A model generated the notes under the pieces. It did not search any database and had not been told where the DNA came from. It was given only the letters and a program-made list of their open reading frames with translations. 45,387 nucleotides of DNA, from assembly GCA_947643405.1 (NCBI GenBank), contig CANRVY010000011.1, positions 1 to 45,387 of the forward strand, written 5' to 3'. Source of the stretch: an uncultured Mycoplasmatota bacterium. Lineage in GTDB: Bacteria; Bacillota_I; Bacilli_A; RF39; UBA660. Position numbers and translations under genes: made by a program. Positions 1,876-43,834 of this stretch are shown here, piece by piece. Position 1 is the first letter of the stretch. The number at the start of each line of letters is the position of its first letter.

Positions 1876-3627
1876 CTATATTTCCCATTTATCAATAATT
1901 TGATATCCATTATTTAATAAACCAGTATCGTTACAGTTACTAATTTTATAGTCTGTTTTTCCACCAATAATTTCTCTTGTTCTATAACTATAAAGGGTAA
2001 TATCTTTTTCTACAGTTACTAAACCATATACTGCTTCTCTTTTAGTTGATGTATCATAATCAATAATTACATTTTGAGTTCCATATACTGGCACCTCGTG
2101 CTGCACAGTTCTTAGACATTGATATACAGAGTTCTCATTTGTCGTTGTCGAATTTTTACGGACAGTTCTTGTTTCCTTTTTATAGATTGTATACAATTTT
2201 GCTCCACAGTCACCACAAGTTTCTGTTCCCACTGATATCTTAGTATATCGTGTTGTGCTTGTATTTGTTGGAGTTGAATAAAGTTTTACCAATCCTGCTG
2301 ATGTCCATGCACCATATGTTACATTACTACTAACGCTTCCAGTAGATGTAATAATATAACCATATTCAGCACATTCTTTTTCAGTTCTTGTTCCAATCAA
2401 TACTTGTTTTTGTCCATAAATTGGTTTATTTGGATCTTTATATGTAACAGTTTTATAACCAATTAGTTGTTTTTCCTGTTTTTGTTGTGTTACTGTTTTA
2501 TAGCGTTCTTGTCTTAAATTGCTTGATGATAGTCTTCTTTCAGACCAATCAGACCAAGATGACCAAGCACCATAACTACTACTAGTAGTTTTCATATATT
2601 TGCATTGATACTGCTTTGGAGTAGTACATTCTGCTTCATAAGTTGCTTGATTTACCACATTTCCATTTTTCCCATAATAGATTCCATTTATATATTTACA
2701 AATATAAGTTGGAGCTGGCTCATTTTCACATTCTTTCTTATATGTTGCTTCATTTACTACATTACCATTTTTTCCATAATAAATTCCGTTTACATATTTA
2801 CAAATGTAAGTTGGAGTTGGTTCATTTTCACATTCTTTTTTATATGTTTCTTCGCTTACAATGTTACCATTTTTTCCATAATAAGCTCCATTTACATATT
2901 TACAATAATACTTTTCTTCTAATTTACATTCTTTATCATAAGTAGTTTTATCTACTTGATCTCCATTTGCTCCATAATATTTTCCATTCACATATTGACA
3001 GTAATATTTTCCTGGTTTACAATTATCACTTTCGCAATTATTATTAATTATAATATTATTATTAATAATTGGTCTAACTATAGTTTCTTTAATAATTGTA
3101 GTAGGCCCTGATGGATTTACTGTTGGAGATTTTATATCTTCTTCATTTTTTTCACAAATTCCAGTTTCACAATAATTATAACATCCCATTACAACTAATA
3201 AATAATTTTCTTGATTTGTACATTTTAAGTTTACTTTCATAATGAATTCTTCATCTTCTTTTGTAATACTTACATAAGACTCTTCAAGATCGCATTGATT
3301 ACCTTCTCTATCAACAAAAGGTAAAATTATTTTTTTATCAAGCATTTCATTTAAAGTCATGGATACTTTATCTCCAACATTTTTTGGTAATCTTGGTGTT
3401 GTATAATAACTTTTAGCAGCATCTTTCATTGCAATAATATTATCATTAAAAATTCGATCATAAAGTGGTTCTAATGAACTTACACTTTGAGTCGTTTTTA
3501 ATTTATCCAAATCACTTTTACTAGGAAATAAACATATTAAAATAAATATGAACATTACCATTAATAATATTTGAATAACAACTCCTTTAATTGAACTTTT
3601 ATCTTTTCTTTCTTCATATTCGTACAT
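1876..3627 (-). CDS. Cysteine-repeat envelope protein with N-terminal membrane anchor (paralogue of 3829..5484)
   Basis: 583 residues. A short basic/acidic N-terminus and a hydrophobic helix (about residues 14-34) anchor it. Residues ~55-165 form a compact domain with Cys pairs that is clearly homologous to the next gene (shared SYYTTPRLP, GDKVSMTL, CDL). An Asn/Ile-rich linker leads to four ~33-residue modules (about residues 205-337) with consensus YYCKYVNGxYYGKNGNVV and a closing YKKEC, so two Cys each. Then come a WSSWSDWS stretch (around residues 349-362), a CGDCG motif and a long Thr-rich, beta-like tail. The first part resembles a minor-pilin layout but lacks a clear prepilin cleavage site, where its paralogue has a near one. 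Two tandem promoters lie upstream. Probably a surface or pilus-associated protein; exact role unknown. Confidence 0.85.
   Translation of the reverse strand: MYEYEERKDKSSIKGVVIQILLMVMFIFILICLFPSKSDLDKLKTTQSVSSLEPLYDRIFNDNIIAMKDAAKSYYTTPRLPKNVGDKVSMTLNEMLDKKIILPFVDREGNQCDLEESYVSITKEDEEFIMKVNLKCTNQENYLLVVMGCYNYCETGICEKNEEDIKSPTVNPSGPTTIIKETIVRPIINNNIIINNNCESDNCKPGKYYCQYVNGKYYGANGDQVDKTTYDKECKLEEKYYCKYVNGAYYGKNGNIVSEETYKKECENEPTPTYICKYVNGIYYGKNGNVVNEATYKKECENEPAPTYICKYINGIYYGKNGNVVNQATYEAECTTPKQYQCKYMKTTSSSYGAWSSWSDWSERRLSSSNLRQERYKTVTQQKQEKQLIGYKTVTYKDPNKPIYGQKQVLIGTRTEKECAEYGYIITSTGSVSSNVTYGAWTSAGLVKLYSTPTNTSTTRYTKISVGTETCGDCGAKLYTIYKKETRTVRKNSTTTNENSVYQCLRTVQHEVPVYGTQNVIIDYDTSTKREAVYGLVTVEKDITLYSYRTREIIGGKTDYKISNCNDTGLLNNGYQIIDKWEI
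2616..3011 (-). repeat. Four coding cysteine modules in 1876..3627
   Basis: Four tandem protein modules of about 32-35 residues, each with a Cys near the start (YxCxY) and one at the end (KEC or AEC). The DNA copies have diverged, with different codons and substitutions, unlike the nearly identical copies in the paralogue. A fifth partial module (QYQCKY) follows and breaks into the WSxWS region. Confidence 0.8.
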
Positions 3628-3657
3628 AATAATTCCCCCTTCTCAATTGGTTGCGTT

Positions 3658-3686
3658 ATAATACCACAAAACACAGTCTTTGTCAA
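3658..3686 (-). promoter_or_regulatory. Proximal promoter of the 1876..3627 operon
   Basis: On the minus strand TTGACA (3681-3686), a 17-bp spacer and TATTAT (3658-3663), about 30 bp before the start codon at 3627 and its RBS (GAAGGGGGAA). A near-consensus housekeeping promoter. Confidence 0.7.
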
Positions 3687-3732
3687 ATATCAACAAAATT
3701 TTCTCTATACATAAAACTGCCCATGTGTTTTA

Positions 3733-3761
3733 ATCATATCACAGTTATCTACCTTTGTCAA
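3733..3761 (-). promoter_or_regulatory. Distal promoter of the 1876..3627 operon
   Basis: On the minus strand TTGACA (3756-3761), a 17-bp spacer and TATGAT (3733-3738) preceded by TGA as an extended -10. It sits 75 bp upstream of the proximal promoter, so the operon appears to have tandem promoters. Confidence 0.6.
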
Positions 3762-3806
3762 TTTTTGAATCGCCATTTTTCCCTGTAAAATCAACAGATT
3801 ATAGAT

Positions 3807-3829
3807 GAAAAAAAGATGTTAATACATCT
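3807..3829 (-). terminator. Terminator of the 3829..5484 gene
   Basis: The minus-strand transcript forms AGATGT-ATTA-ACATCT followed by seven U residues, immediately after the TAA stop. Confidence 0.75.
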
Positions 3830-5484
3830 TATCTCCATTCTGTTTTTCCTGTATATTCTACACCATTCAAATTAGGATTTATTGTCCACTTTCTTGGACC
3901 ATATTCATAATTAGTTTCTACATCATAAACTGTATATCTTTTTATTACTTGATTGCTTTCTTTTTTTGTTAAACTCGAACATGGTTTGGTTTTCGTTTTA
4001 GACGCTACAATGTCATAAGTTAAATGAAAACGGATAGGCACATAATATATATTTCCTACATTACTATCATTGTAAGTATCTAAATATCTATCTTTTAAAA
4101 TATTTGTTCGATTAAATAACACACGATAATCAATTCGATACTCTACATAATTACTATATGATATTGTTTTTGTCTTTAATACTCTAACATCACTAAAATG
4201 TTTCTTACTTAACGCCGAATTTTTAAATCTCGTTGTTGTGATTGTATCTTTGGCACTCCACTTAGAGTCATTATACTCATAATTATAAATAGACCCATTG
4301 GCTTTTAAATTTTTCCAGGCAGATAAATTAAACGTTTCTTGACCATATGAAATTCGATCAATTTGAACATTCGTAGCTCCTGCTGGTAAAGTAACTGCAT
4401 ATGGATATCTTGAAATATCTGTAGTACTAATTCCAGTATAACCTAAAGTATAAATATATTTACTTGCTTCTTCTACAGGATAATATGCGCACATTTTAGT
4501 TGCTACTTCATTCGCAACTAATGTTTTTGTGCGATATTCATAATAAAGAGTTTTTGCTGGTTCTACAACACATTCTTTTTGGTATGTTGTACTATCCACT
4601 ACATTTCCATTTTTCCCATAGTATTTTCCATTCACATATTTACAGTAATATACTGGTTCTACAACACATTCTTTTTGGTATGTTGTACTATCCACTACAT
4701 TTCCATTTTTCCCATAGTATTTTCCATTCACATATTTACAGTAATATACTGGTTCTGCAACACATTCTTTTTGATATGTTGTACTATCCACTACATTTCC
4801 ATTTTTCCCATAGTATTTTCCATCTATATATTTGCAATAATATACTGGTTCCGTTCTAATAGGCCCTTCTTCACAATTTACACAATTATTAATTGTAATA
4901 TTATTATTGATTACTGGTCTTTCTGTTGTTACAATGCTTTCTACAACAGTTGTCTGGGTAGGTTTCGTATTAGAAACAAGATCCGTGTCATTACTTTTCT
5001 CACATATATCATTTTCACAATATTGATAACATCCTAAATGTACAATTAAATAATCTTCTTTTCCTGAGCAACTTAAGACTACTTTTAACTCATATTCATC
5101 TGCTCTCTTTGCAATTTCTACATATGAATTATTTATATCACAACTACTCCCATTTTTATCCTGAATTGATAATACAAGCTTTTTATCTATCATTTCCTTT
5201 AACGTCATTGATACCTTATCACCTGTATTTCTTGGCAATCTTGGTGTCGTATAATAACTCTCTGCTGCTACTTTCATATCAAGTAAGTTTTCATTAAAAA
5301 TTCTATTTGATAAAACCTGATAATCTGCACTATTTCCAGAAACTTCTTGCTTTTCCATATTATTTATAAATCCCTTTGTTGGAAATAACCATATTAGTGC
5401 GAATATAAATAATACAAAGAAAAGAATTTGAAGTATAATATCTGTTAATACAAAGCCATCTTCTCTACTTCTATACATAAACAT
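3829..5484 (-). CDS. Cysteine-repeat envelope protein with prepilin-like N-terminus
   Basis: 551 residues, paralogue of 1876..3627. The N-terminus reads REDGFVLTDIILQILF and continues hydrophobic. This matches a type IV prepilin site (G, then F, with an acidic residue at +5, here Asp rather than Glu) followed by the pilin helix. Residues ~55-165 share the YYTTPRLP...GDKVSMTL...CD domain and a Cys-rich end (GCYQYCENDICEK). Three almost identical 32-residue modules (YYCKYxxGKYYGKNGNVV ... YQKEC) follow, then a ~230-residue Tyr/Thr-rich domain. RBS AGGAGGAATGTT precedes ATG 5484. It has its own promoter and terminator. Likely a surface-exposed pilin-like or adhesin protein; the prepilin assignment is inference. 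Confidence 0.85.
   Translation of the reverse strand: MFMYRSREDGFVLTDIILQILFFVLFIFALIWLFPTKGFINNMEKQEVSGNSADYQVLSNRIFNENLLDMKVAAESYYTTPRLPRNTGDKVSMTLKEMIDKKLVLSIQDKNGSSCDINNSYVEIAKRADEYELKVVLSCSGKEDYLIVHLGCYQYCENDICEKSNDTDLVSNTKPTQTTVVESIVTTERPVINNNITINNCVNCEEGPIRTEPVYYCKYIDGKYYGKNGNVVDSTTYQKECVAEPVYYCKYVNGKYYGKNGNVVDSTTYQKECVVEPVYYCKYVNGKYYGKNGNVVDSTTYQKECVVEPAKTLYYEYRTKTLVANEVATKMCAYYPVEEASKYIYTLGYTGISTTDISRYPYAVTLPAGATNVQIDRISYGQETFNLSAWKNLKANGSIYNYEYNDSKWSAKDTITTTRFKNSALSKKHFSDVRVLKTKTISYSNYVEYRIDYRVLFNRTNILKDRYLDTYNDSNVGNIYYVPIRFHLTYDIVASKTKTKPCSSLTKKESNQVIKRYTVYDVETNYEYGPRKWTINPNLNGVEYTGKTEWR
4559..4846 (-). repeat. Three tandem 96-bp coding repeats in 3829..5484
   Basis: Units at 4559-4654, 4655-4750 and 4751-4846. 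The first two differ by almost nothing and the third by a few bases. Each encodes one 32-residue Cys module, so gain or loss of a unit keeps the frame. The near-identity suggests recent duplication or gene conversion. Confidence 0.9.
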
Positions 5485-5538: not shown

Positions 5539-5832
5539 TCACTTTTTTATCATATTTTCTAAAGAAATTCGAACAATCGTACAACCATTATTATAATAAT
5601 AGGTTTTAAATTCTAAAACTTGCCTATCGTGTGATAACACTTGTTTTACCGTTTCACGCAAAACTCCACTTCCTATTCCATGTATTATTACAAAAATCTC
5701 TTGACGTAATTTTTTATTTTCCTTAATAAAATCCAAGACTGCTACTCTAGCAGTCTCACGATCATACCCATGAAGATCTAATTTTGGATATTGCTCTATA
5801 AAAATAACATTATTTAAAGTCATGGTATACAT
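5539..5832 (-). CDS. Stand-alone Smr-domain protein
   Basis: 97 residues consisting almost entirely of a Smr (small MutS-related) domain. It shows the LDLHG motif near residue 19 and HGIGSGVLR near residue 51, the two signatures of this family. Smr domains bind or cleave structured nucleic acid, and in some bacteria stand-alone or MutS2-linked copies act on stalled ribosome complexes or on recombination intermediates; which applies here cannot be seen. The start ATG 5832 has GAAGAAG seven bases upstream and overlaps the end of the kinase gene by 23 bp, so the two are translationally coupled. ATG 5823 is an alternative start. Confidence 0.85.
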   Translation of the reverse strand: MYTMTLNNVIFIEQYPKLDLHGYDRETARVAVLDFIKENKKLRQEIFVIIHGIGSGVLRETVKQVLSHDRQVLEFKTYYYNNGCTIVRISLENMIKK

Positions 5833-35744: not shown

Positions 35745-35773
35745 CGAAAAAAGAAGAAATTTTTTTCTTCTTT
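35745..35773 (-). terminator. Terminator of 35772..36167
   Basis: Minus-strand AAAGAAGAAA / UUUCUUCUUU 10-bp stem, 3-base loop, followed by further U; overlaps the stop. Confidence 0.7.
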
Positions 35774-36167
35774 AGATTTTTGTTTTCATCATAATTTTAA
35801 ACACTTGTTTGATATGTTCTTTTTTGTCATGATTCATGTCAACAAAATTGAGATGCATTTGATATCCACTATCTAAACTAAGCAGTATTTCAACTTTTCC
35901 AGGTTTAAAATTAATTGCACTAGTAGAAATTGACATATATGGAATAACATGTATTTTCTTATAATATACTGCCATCGTATCACGATCAAACAATACCATT
36001 TTTTTATTTGTAAAAACCATATAATCTTTTGAATTTTTATATGCAAGTAAAATTTTTTCTTCTTCATCGACATATTCTTTTGCATATTCTGGTAATTCTG
36101 CAATATTCAATATTTCCTCTTTAAAATCAAAATATTTTGATAATTCTTTAAATTTTATATATGCCAT
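35772..36167 (-). CDS. PH-domain-like protein A
   Basis: 131 residues, no membrane segment. It has the strand pattern of bacterial PH domains: EEKILLAYKNSKDYMVFTNKK followed by KIHVIPYMSIS (typical 'YxxFTxxR...' turn, here FTNKK) and a closing helix (HDKKEHIKQVFKIMM). It is a paralogue of 36293..36751. Bacterial PH domains usually mediate protein or lipid contacts in stress or envelope settings; the role is not defined. RBS AAGAAGGTG. It has its own extended -10 promoter and terminator, and interrupts the dcw cluster. Confidence 0.75.
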   Translation of the reverse strand: MAYIKFKELSKYFDFKEEILNIAELPEYAKEYVDEEEKILLAYKNSKDYMVFTNKKMVLFDRDTMAVYYKKIHVIPYMSISTSAINFKPGKVEILLSLDSGYQMHLNFVDMNHDKKEHIKQVFKIMMKTKI

Positions 36168-36292: not shown

Positions 36293-36751
36293 TCATATTT
36301 TTTTCAAAGAAACATCATCACTTTTTAGTCTTTTAATATCTTCTTTTAAAGGTTCTTGTCCATTCACAATACGATTAATACAAGTATATAATAAGCGCAA
36401 ACGAATTTTATCCTCCGCTTTCATATCTACAAATTTTAATTTTACTGGAAAACCACAATCTAAAGAAAAATTTAATTCTGCACTTTTTTCACCAAAGACA
36501 ATATCTAATACAGATACAGACTTAAAAGGAATTGTATAAATTCGTTTTGATCTATTCAATGTATTTATATTATCAAATAATACAATTTTCTTATCAGTAA
36601 ATACTCCATGATCACGACTTGTCTTATATGCAACTAAAATATTTTCATCCTCTGGAACATAATGTTTAATATAACCAGGCAAGTCATCATCATTTAATAC
36701 CTTCGAAAAATTAAAAGCTCTTGTCACTTCCTTATACTTCATATAAGCCAT
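36293..36751 (-). CDS. PH-domain-like protein B
   Basis: 152 residues, paralogue of 35772..36167: same start (MAYMKYKEVTRAF versus MAYIKFKELSKYF), same core (ENILVAYKTSRDHGVFTDKKIVLFD, split at FTDKK) and the same final helix (AEDKIRLRLLYTCINRIV). It carries an extra Lys-rich ~25-residue tail. The pair arose by duplication and each copy has its own extended -10 promoter. Possible partner or membrane contact proteins for the cell-wall machinery next door; unproven. Confidence 0.75.
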   Translation of the reverse strand: MAYMKYKEVTRAFNFSKVLNDDDLPGYIKHYVPEDENILVAYKTSRDHGVFTDKKIVLFDNINTLNRSKRIYTIPFKSVSVLDIVFGEKSAELNFSLDCGFPVKLKFVDMKAEDKIRLRLLYTCINRIVNGQEPLKEDIKRLKSDDVSLKKI

Positions 36752-42742: not shown

Positions 42743-43834
42743 TTAGAGACTTATATTAAATGGATTTGTATTACTTCCTGAGCCTGATTCCACTCTTACA
42801 TCCGCTTTTAAATATACCACTGGACGTACTCCAAAAAGATTGTTTGCTCCTCCCCATCCAGTATTCCCATTTGTATGTATAAGCCACACAAGGTCTGAAT
42901 AGTCACTAAGAGAAATAATTGTCCACTGATGTAGAGAATTGCTGTATGTCCAGTTATTATCTTTACAATGTGTTGTATTATACAAATCTGTAGCATCTGT
43001 GCAGTTACCATTTGTACTTGCATATCCATAATCGGCTGGTGTCATTAATCCTACTTTTCCTGTCCATGTACGATTATTTCTTGCTGCATAAAAATTACTT
43101 CTTGTATTTACTCCTTCTGAATAGGACATTCCTCCTATTCCCCAATTATGATTCTGATCTACCATATTTTGATATATACTATCAATAGTATCCCAATATG
43201 TTGTATTTAATTCTGTTTGTAATGAAGCTGTGCTCCAATCATTTTTGTTGCTTGTATCCCACGCTATTCCTGTATTATAAAAATCATTTTTCATAATTTT
43301 TACTTGTCCACCAAATACGCCTATAATTCTCCATAACTCATTATTAAAACGGATATAATTATTAGGACTTTCTCCTACATATCTTTTATTTCCTTCTGAA
43401 TCACTTGTTGCAATATTAGCAGCAGTATTTATTTTTTCTACCAATGTTGGTTTCTCTACTGGTCTTTGATCTTCACATGATGCTTCTGTGTAAATATATT
43501 TATATTGATTATAAGAAGGATCATAACTGATTACAATACAACCTGTCATAAGACTTTCATCTCTTGGATCCTTTAATTCCTTTTGTGAAACATACCCACC
43601 TAATACTAAATCATTTAGTTCTAGATAATAAGAACCACTATCAGGTAATTGTGCTGTATGTTCTACTCCCCATTTCCTAGCGTTTTCTTCAATAAGCGCC
43701 ACTTGTTCATTATATAATTTTTGCTTAGAATTTTTAATTGATTTACTTACATTAGGAAAGATAATAAGAGCAATAAGCCCCAAAATAACAATAACTCCTA
43801 AAACTTCTGTTAATGTAAATCCTCTTTTTTTCAT
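42743..43834 (-). CDS. Type IV prepilin-like protein with large C-terminal domain
   Basis: 363 residues. N-terminus MKKRGFTLTEVLGVIVILGL is a perfect prepilin site: cleavage after Gly5, Phe +1, Glu +5, then the pilin helix. Residues ~30-130 look like the pilin head with two Cys. From ~140 on an additional domain rich in Trp, Asn and Gly follows, ending in GVRPVVYLKADV, a type seen attached to prepilin-like proteins of gut Firmicutes. No prepilin peptidase, ATPase or other pilus gene lies in this window. Own promoter (43860-43888) and terminator. A substrate-binding pilin is an inference. Confidence 0.88.
   Translation of the reverse strand: MKKRGFTLTEVLGVIVILGLIALIIFPNVSKSIKNSKQKLYNEQVALIEENARKWGVEHTAQLPDSGSYYLELNDLVLGGYVSQKELKDPRDESLMTGCIVISYDPSYNQYKYIYTEASCEDQRPVEKPTLVEKINTAANIATSDSEGNKRYVGESPNNYIRFNNELWRIIGVFGGQVKIMKNDFYNTGIAWDTSNKNDWSTASLQTELNTTYWDTIDSIYQNMVDQNHNWGIGGMSYSEGVNTRSNFYAARNNRTWTGKVGLMTPADYGYASTNGNCTDATDLYNTTHCKDNNWTYSNSLHQWTIISLSDYSDLVWLIHTNGNTGWGGANNLFGVRPVVYLKADVRVESGSGSNTNPFNISL

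Follow-up and report, generated by a model that had tools for sequence, protein, structure and literature searches.

The window analysed here is a stretch of 45,387 nt from an uncultured Mycoplasmatota bacterium (GCA_947643405.1, contig CANRVY010000011.1, positions 1 to 45,387). It is contig C11 of an assembly that has 57 contigs, totals 1.55 Mb and is rated 95.7% complete. Near its start, on the minus strand, it holds two paralogous genes, here called copy 1 and copy 2, whose products follow a common plan: a short cytoplasmic N-terminus, a membrane helix, a linker, a head, a second linker, tandem two-Cys modules and a tail. A first-pass annotation of this DNA took the pair for a module-extended minor pilin or an adhesin with pilin-like starts. 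The elements it listed (a paralogous pair, a membrane helix, a shared YYTTPRLP sequence, four and three modules, and different tails) are all present. YYTTPRLP stands in the heads of both copies, and the heads are 58% identical across 106 aligned columns. No curated family scored above cut-off for either copy. The weak Pfam and NCBIfam names UvsY, L34e, KOW, FixQ and conj_pls20_p028 were set aside, being below the cut-offs for the window copies or scattered. The features are as follows.

3829..5484, minus strand: copy 2, 551 aa, with membrane anchor, pilin head, three Cys modules and a tail of its own type
5440..5457, minus strand: GFVLTD of copy 2, a class-III-like site (Gly at -1 to Asp at +5), unmatched by the N_methyl models
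5383..5454, minus strand: predicted transmembrane helix of copy 2 (helix 9-31 of the head model), with the invariant Pro35 directly after it
4990..5331, minus strand: putative pilin-fold head of copy 2, alpha1C plus beta sheet, with five conserved Cys
4570..4836, minus strand: three tandem two-Cys modules of copy 2
3832..4569, minus strand: tail of copy 2, which cannot be aligned with that of copy 1
1876..3627, minus strand: copy 1, 583 aa, with membrane anchor, pilin head, four Cys modules and a family-typical tail
3526..3591, minus strand: predicted transmembrane helix of copy 1, where KSSIKG replaces the Gly-Phe site
3148..3471, minus strand: putative pilin-fold head of copy 1
2626..3000, minus strand: four tandem two-Cys modules of copy 1, each predicted as beta-beta-alpha
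2347..2514, minus strand: tail of copy 1, predicted 56-residue beta strand 1 (residues 372-427)
2134..2346, minus strand: tail of copy 1, small domain between the long strands (residues 428-498), with Cys471 and Cys474
1966..2133, minus strand: tail of copy 1, predicted 56-residue beta strand 2 (residues 499-554)
5539..5832, minus strand: Smr-domain gene, the conserved upstream neighbour, given for context only

The pilin head and the signal site

To compare the heads with pilins we used two profiles. The head profile was made from 30 soluble heads, for which 30 of 31 loci were used (L047, with an internal stop, was left out). The pilin profile was made from 24 GFTLxE pilins with the membrane part removed, and comprised 22 of 30 loci, L016 and the pilin of the window. 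Aligned by hhalign, the two profiles matched with 96.5% probability (E 7e-10, 75 columns), while the best of 100 column shuffles reached 4.3% and the reversed profile 0.3%. Among the weaker HMMER matches of the head profile 20 were inspected; in 14 of them a canonical class III motif (GFTLxE) was found upstream of the same head, and the remaining six belong to another anchored family, whose proteins are about 600 aa long.

An AlphaFold2 model of the copy 2 head, built from 82 rows, had a predicted local distance difference test score (pLDDT) of 79.4 and a predicted template modelling score (pTM) of 0.58. It shows helices at 9-31, 35-43 and 50-75 followed by a three-stranded antiparallel sheet, and when the model was run through VIA-align, type 4 pilins or pseudopilins filled 8 of the top 9 rows. 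Judged by sequence comparison, the soluble head is homologous to the type 4 pilin head. Homology, the topology of the model and the VIA-align rows together point to the pilin head fold, in which alpha1C packs on an antiparallel sheet. The pilin-like fold surmised in the first-pass annotation is hence borne out by the profile-profile match, the matches in class III open reading frames (ORFs), the head model and VIA-align. The structure prediction it had suggested as a check returned the helix plus antiparallel sheet, with pilins dominating the VIA-align rows.

It could be argued that the resemblance is convergent and that a plain signal anchor here carries an alpha-beta domain unrelated to pilins, as Foldseek gave no significant match and the phage protein gp25 stood level with the pilins in VIA-align. 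The profile-profile match with its shuffle control and the direct HMMER matches into class III pilin ORFs speak against this; the explanation is strongly disfavoured and to us scarcely credible.

According to a recent review (PMC10191384), the leader of a prepilin always ends in Gly or Ala and is followed by 20-25 hydrophobic residues, often with Glu at position five, and alpha-1 is one helix of about 50 residues which continues into the pilin head. The anchors of the present proteins were compared with this pattern in a family alignment of 82 heads, consisting of both window copies and the best 80 of the 287 loci confirmed in a contig scan. Copy 2 has GFVLTD at residues 10-15 and copy 1 has KSSIKG at the equivalent place, with neither Gly, Phe nor an acidic residue at +5. 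Gly or Ala at -1 is found in 15 of the 82 family members (Gly in copy 2, Lys in copy 1) as against 24 of 24 true pilins. Glu at +5 is present in none of the 82 but in 24 of 24 pilins, the family having Asp in 65 of 82, and Lys or Arg occupies +4 in 79 of 82 members and in 0 of 24 pilins. The Phe of the juxtamembrane stretch F-S-[IL]-[KR]-D is kept in 73 of 82, and Pro at the membrane exit in 82 of 82. From this Pro to the head helix runs a linker of 16-47 residues, whereas alpha-1 is gapless and of fixed length in all 24 pilins. In 40 more distant members, inspected by eye, the cytoplasmic part is variable and in some long and lysine-rich, with GFxxxE in none and GFxxxD in six. The Gly/Ala state at -1 requires 8 changes on the head tree.

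Neither copy was matched by the N_methyl or GFxxxE models, neither was included in the 18 places (17 above cut-off) returned by an N_methyl scan of the whole genome, and N_methyl was absent from the 25 most frequent Pfam families across the 82 heads (E <= 1). As a family these proteins lack a class III signal with a leader ending in Gly or Ala, lack Glu at +5 of the hydrophobic stretch (a residue that pilins usually but not always have), and lack a continuous alpha-1 of about 50 residues joining the membrane part to the head. On the features tested, therefore, we do not count them as type 4 pilins. The first-pass annotation had defined a minor pilin by its prepilin-type signal; that part of its proposal failed, and its remark that the anchor diverged between the copies was correct. 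The residues at -1, +4 and +5 and the findings on the helix led us to reject a plain prepilin reading for the family; it stays alive for copy 2 only.

In that remaining form at least copy 2 would be an ordinary modular minor pilin: cut at Gly10, whether or not it is also methylated, it would cap a type 4 pilus and offer its modules and tail for sticking. This explanation fits the GFVLTD shared by copy 2 and two orthologues, the pilin head, and the peptidase, ATPase and platform present in the genome. Modular pilins are known and widespread (PMC8179133), and minor pilins of the tip may lack Glu5 (PMC10191384). We nevertheless regard it as unlikely: the N_methyl models do not see copy 2, 67 of 82 relatives are without Gly or Ala at -1, an invariant Pro and a variable linker stand where pilins have an unbroken helix, and copy 1 lacks Gly, Phe and the acidic +5.

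Distribution, gene order and pilus genes

A search with the copy 2 protein found relatives in 74 of 147 genomes, all among the 88 that belong to the window's own bacterial family. The head profile had matches in 79 of the 147, again all in this family, and 73 of the 88 matched at E <= 1e-10. Of 395 genomes drawn from across the class, 54 were of the same family, and 52 of these matched (49 at E <= 1e-10), along with 1 of the 341 others; that one match is a class III pilin. Six of the 79 matching genomes have weak head matches only (E above 1e-10). In the five of these that were inspected (not G014) the matches are class III pilins, one genome having the 600-aa family as well, and the presence counts from the head profile hence overstate the protein family. 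The kept loci are mostly from assemblies of Bacilli, Bacillota, Firmicutes, Tenericutes or Mollicutes, with one Candidatus Faecisoma merdavium.

In 71 of 81 loci an Smr-domain gene stands near the head gene on its strand (immediately upstream in 67 loci), and beyond it lies a PfkB-type kinase gene (named by eye) in 53 of 81. The 13 commonest neighbour clusters listed for the 81 loci include no pilus gene. To judge from these comparisons the gene is restricted to one bacterial family with its order conserved, and it seems to have been inherited vertically and does not resemble an adhesin island.

In the head tree the two copies are not sisters: copy 1 joins the orthologues of its genus (100/100), and the wider placement of copy 2 (91/82) is not firm. 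Among the pilin heads, the protein family of the window is monophyletic (100/100). The second anchored family, with proteins of about 600 aa (L248, L249, L250, L252, L264, L265) is a separate clade (100/96), found in several genomes of the same bacterial family and having the pilin head on a signal anchor without a class III site. A common loss of the signal in both protein families, with support of 45/25, is neither shown nor rejected.

Conservation of the locus also bears on a different proposal, in which the proteins are single-pass envelope sensors or wall-associated structural proteins whose Cys-rich outer part senses the redox or wall state and whose cytoplasmic F-S-[IL]-[KR]-D stretch signals inward. 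Such a role would suit a vertically kept, syntenic locus that is not a variable adhesin island, and would suit the juxtamembrane motif of the near relatives (F 73/82, K/R 79/82, D 65/82). The motif is lost in many of the 40 more distant members, however, and the conserved neighbours are only apparent housekeeping genes with no partner among them, which makes this proposal quite improbable.

The first-pass annotation had guessed that pilus machinery lay elsewhere in the genome, and was right, as prepilin peptidase, assembly ATPase (T2SSE) and platform (T2SSF) lie together on contig C9 (L051) in a type-4-pilus-like arrangement. The search it recommended for the first two thus found both. Further T2SSE loci on C5 (L052) and C8 (L053), which we take from their neighbours to be Tad-like, make three T2SSE-type loci in the genome. 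The true prepilin it named at 42743-43834 is supported by Pfam N_methyl at 25.1 bits against a cut-off of 21.2. The 17 class III pilin-like places above the N_methyl cut-off (L009-L020) include several with very long repeated tails.

Co-occurrence of the gene with pilus genes has little power, since pilus genes are nearly universal in the bacterial family. Eight genomes of the family (G023, G028, G029, G030, G033, G037, G057, G068) have matches to the A24 peptidase and T2SSF and no head match. G043 (94% complete, 9 contigs) retains the gene (E 1.9e-44) with the usual Smr and recombinase neighbours and gave 0 matches for N_methyl, T2SSE and T2SSF. Gene and pilus can apparently part, although G043 is thin evidence, being one genome.

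These observations touch on the possibility that the proteins are membrane-resident accessories of the type 4 pilus, uncut by design, which act as a primer or docking site with the head packing on pilin heads at the filament base. A pilin head could well pair with pilin heads, and most of the 88 genomes carry the gene plus pilus markers. Against such a function stand the eight genomes with peptidase and platform and no head match, G043 with its gene in the absence of detected pilins, ATPase and platform, and the lack of pilus genes among the listed neighbour clusters; we find it distinctly unlikely.

As a separate observation, G043 also encodes a membrane-anchored protein of 367 aa (L203:7341-8444) with a pilin-like head start, for which the single-sequence profile match is weak. 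Its C-terminal part resembles, by eye, that of the window pilin at 42743-43834.

Cysteine modules and tails

The two-Cys module measures 25 residues from Cys to Cys and occurs four times in copy 1 (residues 210-334) and three times in copy 2 (217-305). The modules of copy 2 are mutually identical at 84-90 of 96 nt and are a recent tandem expansion. A single copy of the module is also present in an unrelated secreted acidic protein of 374 aa in the same genome (L004:967-2091), so the module is mobile; the gene for this protein adjoins a signal-peptidase-like gene.

Homology between the two tails was tested by alignment with shuffles and by profiles and none was found, the local score being 45, where 200 shuffles reached up to 66, and the profile probability 0.8%. 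Copy 1 has the tail type of the family, with WSxWSxW near the start, YRYRTR near the end and a terminal TGxK in most rows, and copy 2 has a different type. The WSxWSxW and YRYRTR pattern is reminiscent of a thrombospondin-type repeat. This idea was dropped, as there was no Pfam match and a model with such long strands does not look like a compact repeat.

For a model of the copy 1 tail, 52 of 61 tails were used, from a prepared set that omitted very long, short or unparsed ones. The resulting model of residues 161-583 (pLDDT 80.4, pTM 0.38) predicts the Cys modules as beta-beta-alpha and, beyond them, a pair of 56-residue strands, apparently antiparallel, that flank a small domain. By arithmetic, with what we take to be about 3.3 angstroms per residue, the ribbon would be about 18 nm long. 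Since Foldseek gave no match for the tail model at E <= 0.001 and VIA Z reached only 2.9, no fold is assigned to this tail.

Candidate origin and role of the two proteins

On balance we lean, at somewhat better than even confidence, towards both genes encoding exapted modular pilins, permanently anchored in the membrane and outside the pilus, which display the Cys modules and a stalk; the two proteins are probably fixed surface stalks derived from a former pilin. A modular pilin ancestor would have lost its class III signal and filament helix and so become a fixed surface protein. Its N-terminus would have turned into a permanent signal anchor with a predicted N-in, C-out topology, which prepilin peptidase should leave uncut in most relatives. 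The invariant Pro at the membrane exit and the floppy linker may uncouple the helix from the head, and the protein would therefore stay single in the membrane and not enter a pilus. The linker, the modules, which are of disulfide type, and the C-terminal domain could then project through the wall to contact a ligand, that domain being in copy 1 the predicted antiparallel beta ribbon of about 18 nm with its small domain at the far end. The head may now merely serve as a stable base for the stalk. An adhesive or contact-sensing role is suggested by this architecture, which leaves the adhesin half of the first-pass guess plausible, and with moderate confidence we propose that the proteins work like a modular adhesin.

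Several observations weigh against this interpretation. Foldseek returned no match in the Protein Data Bank for the head model at E <= 0.001, and VIA Z for the head is at most 6.2, below the 8 that the tool suggests, with gp25 tied first; such modest values support a pilin fold and fall short of proof. Copy 2 and two close orthologues combine Gly at -1, Phe at +1, an uncharged Thr at +4 and Asp at +5, and because of these residues they might be cleaved; here the site may have moved back, secondarily, towards one that can be cut. The beta ribbon is predicted by an AlphaFold model with a pTM of 0.38 built from 52 rows, no Pfam domain stands out across the tails, and no known adhesive or stalk domain was matched there. 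Nearly all genomes that bear the gene also carry pilus genes. The lone exception is the incomplete genome of G043, so that dependence on the pilus is hard to exclude. G043 itself keeps the A24 prepilin peptidase, and the -1 residue of its copy (MERKGTFIRD) is Gly, which favours the minor pilin explanation.

Stated more broadly, within one family of uncultured Bacilli-like bacteria the class III signal and the filament-forming helix may have been lost from at least one pilin lineage, perhaps from two or more, and the result would be fixed monomeric stalks anchored in the membrane at the surface, the commonest being a near-core gene outside pilus operons with a C-terminal beta-ribbon needle unmatched among solved folds. 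This wider statement we hold tentatively, at a little short of even confidence.

The proteins resemble PilB and PilC of Streptococcus sanguinis in the pilin head, the linker, the grafted C-terminal modules, the monoderm setting and the outward display (PMC8179133). PilB and PilC have a canonical class III signal, are cut by the peptidase and are presented on the filament (PMC8179133), whereas the window family has a degenerate signal and an alpha-1 broken by Pro and a variable linker, and its gene can persist without detectable pilus genes. Closer at hand, the GFTLxE pilins of the same genome and bacterial family (42743-43834; L151-L180; L251, L253-L263, L266, L267) have a homologous soluble head, and some of them also have very long C-terminal extensions. 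Unlike the window family, the 24 that were aligned have Gly or Ala at -1, Glu at +5 and an alpha-1 without a break, and those inspected lack the GCYxYC-CE ending of the window-family head. With fibrillar adhesins (PMC9210967) the proteins would share an anchor, a putative extended stalk, a distal domain and a likely surface location; unlike these, they have no known adhesive or stalk domain in Pfam and their anchor is a pilin-derived N-terminal helix. A literature search in open PubMed Central (PMC) papers found, by title or abstract start, no description of uncut, membrane-anchored pilin-head proteins.

Type 4 pilins are defined by the signal and the shared helix, and their heads are normally recognised only via the signal; a family in which the head has outlived the signal is invisible to pilin finders. 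If our interpretation holds, a pilin can be converted to a static surface protein, and the family is a natural experiment that can separate the pilin parts needed for assembly from those used in display. The proteins may also be the means by which these uncultured bacteria make contact with their environment, and their dependence on pilus genes is directly testable.

Two other parts of the window may be mentioned. Downstream of the copies, at 2-1855, lies a large gene of 618 aa with a membrane helix, open at the contig end; in 6 of 81 loci a member of its cluster occupies position +1 or +2 relative to the head gene. Further away, the adjacent and similar small ORFs at 35772-36167 and 36293-36751 (131 and 152 aa) look like tandem duplicates.

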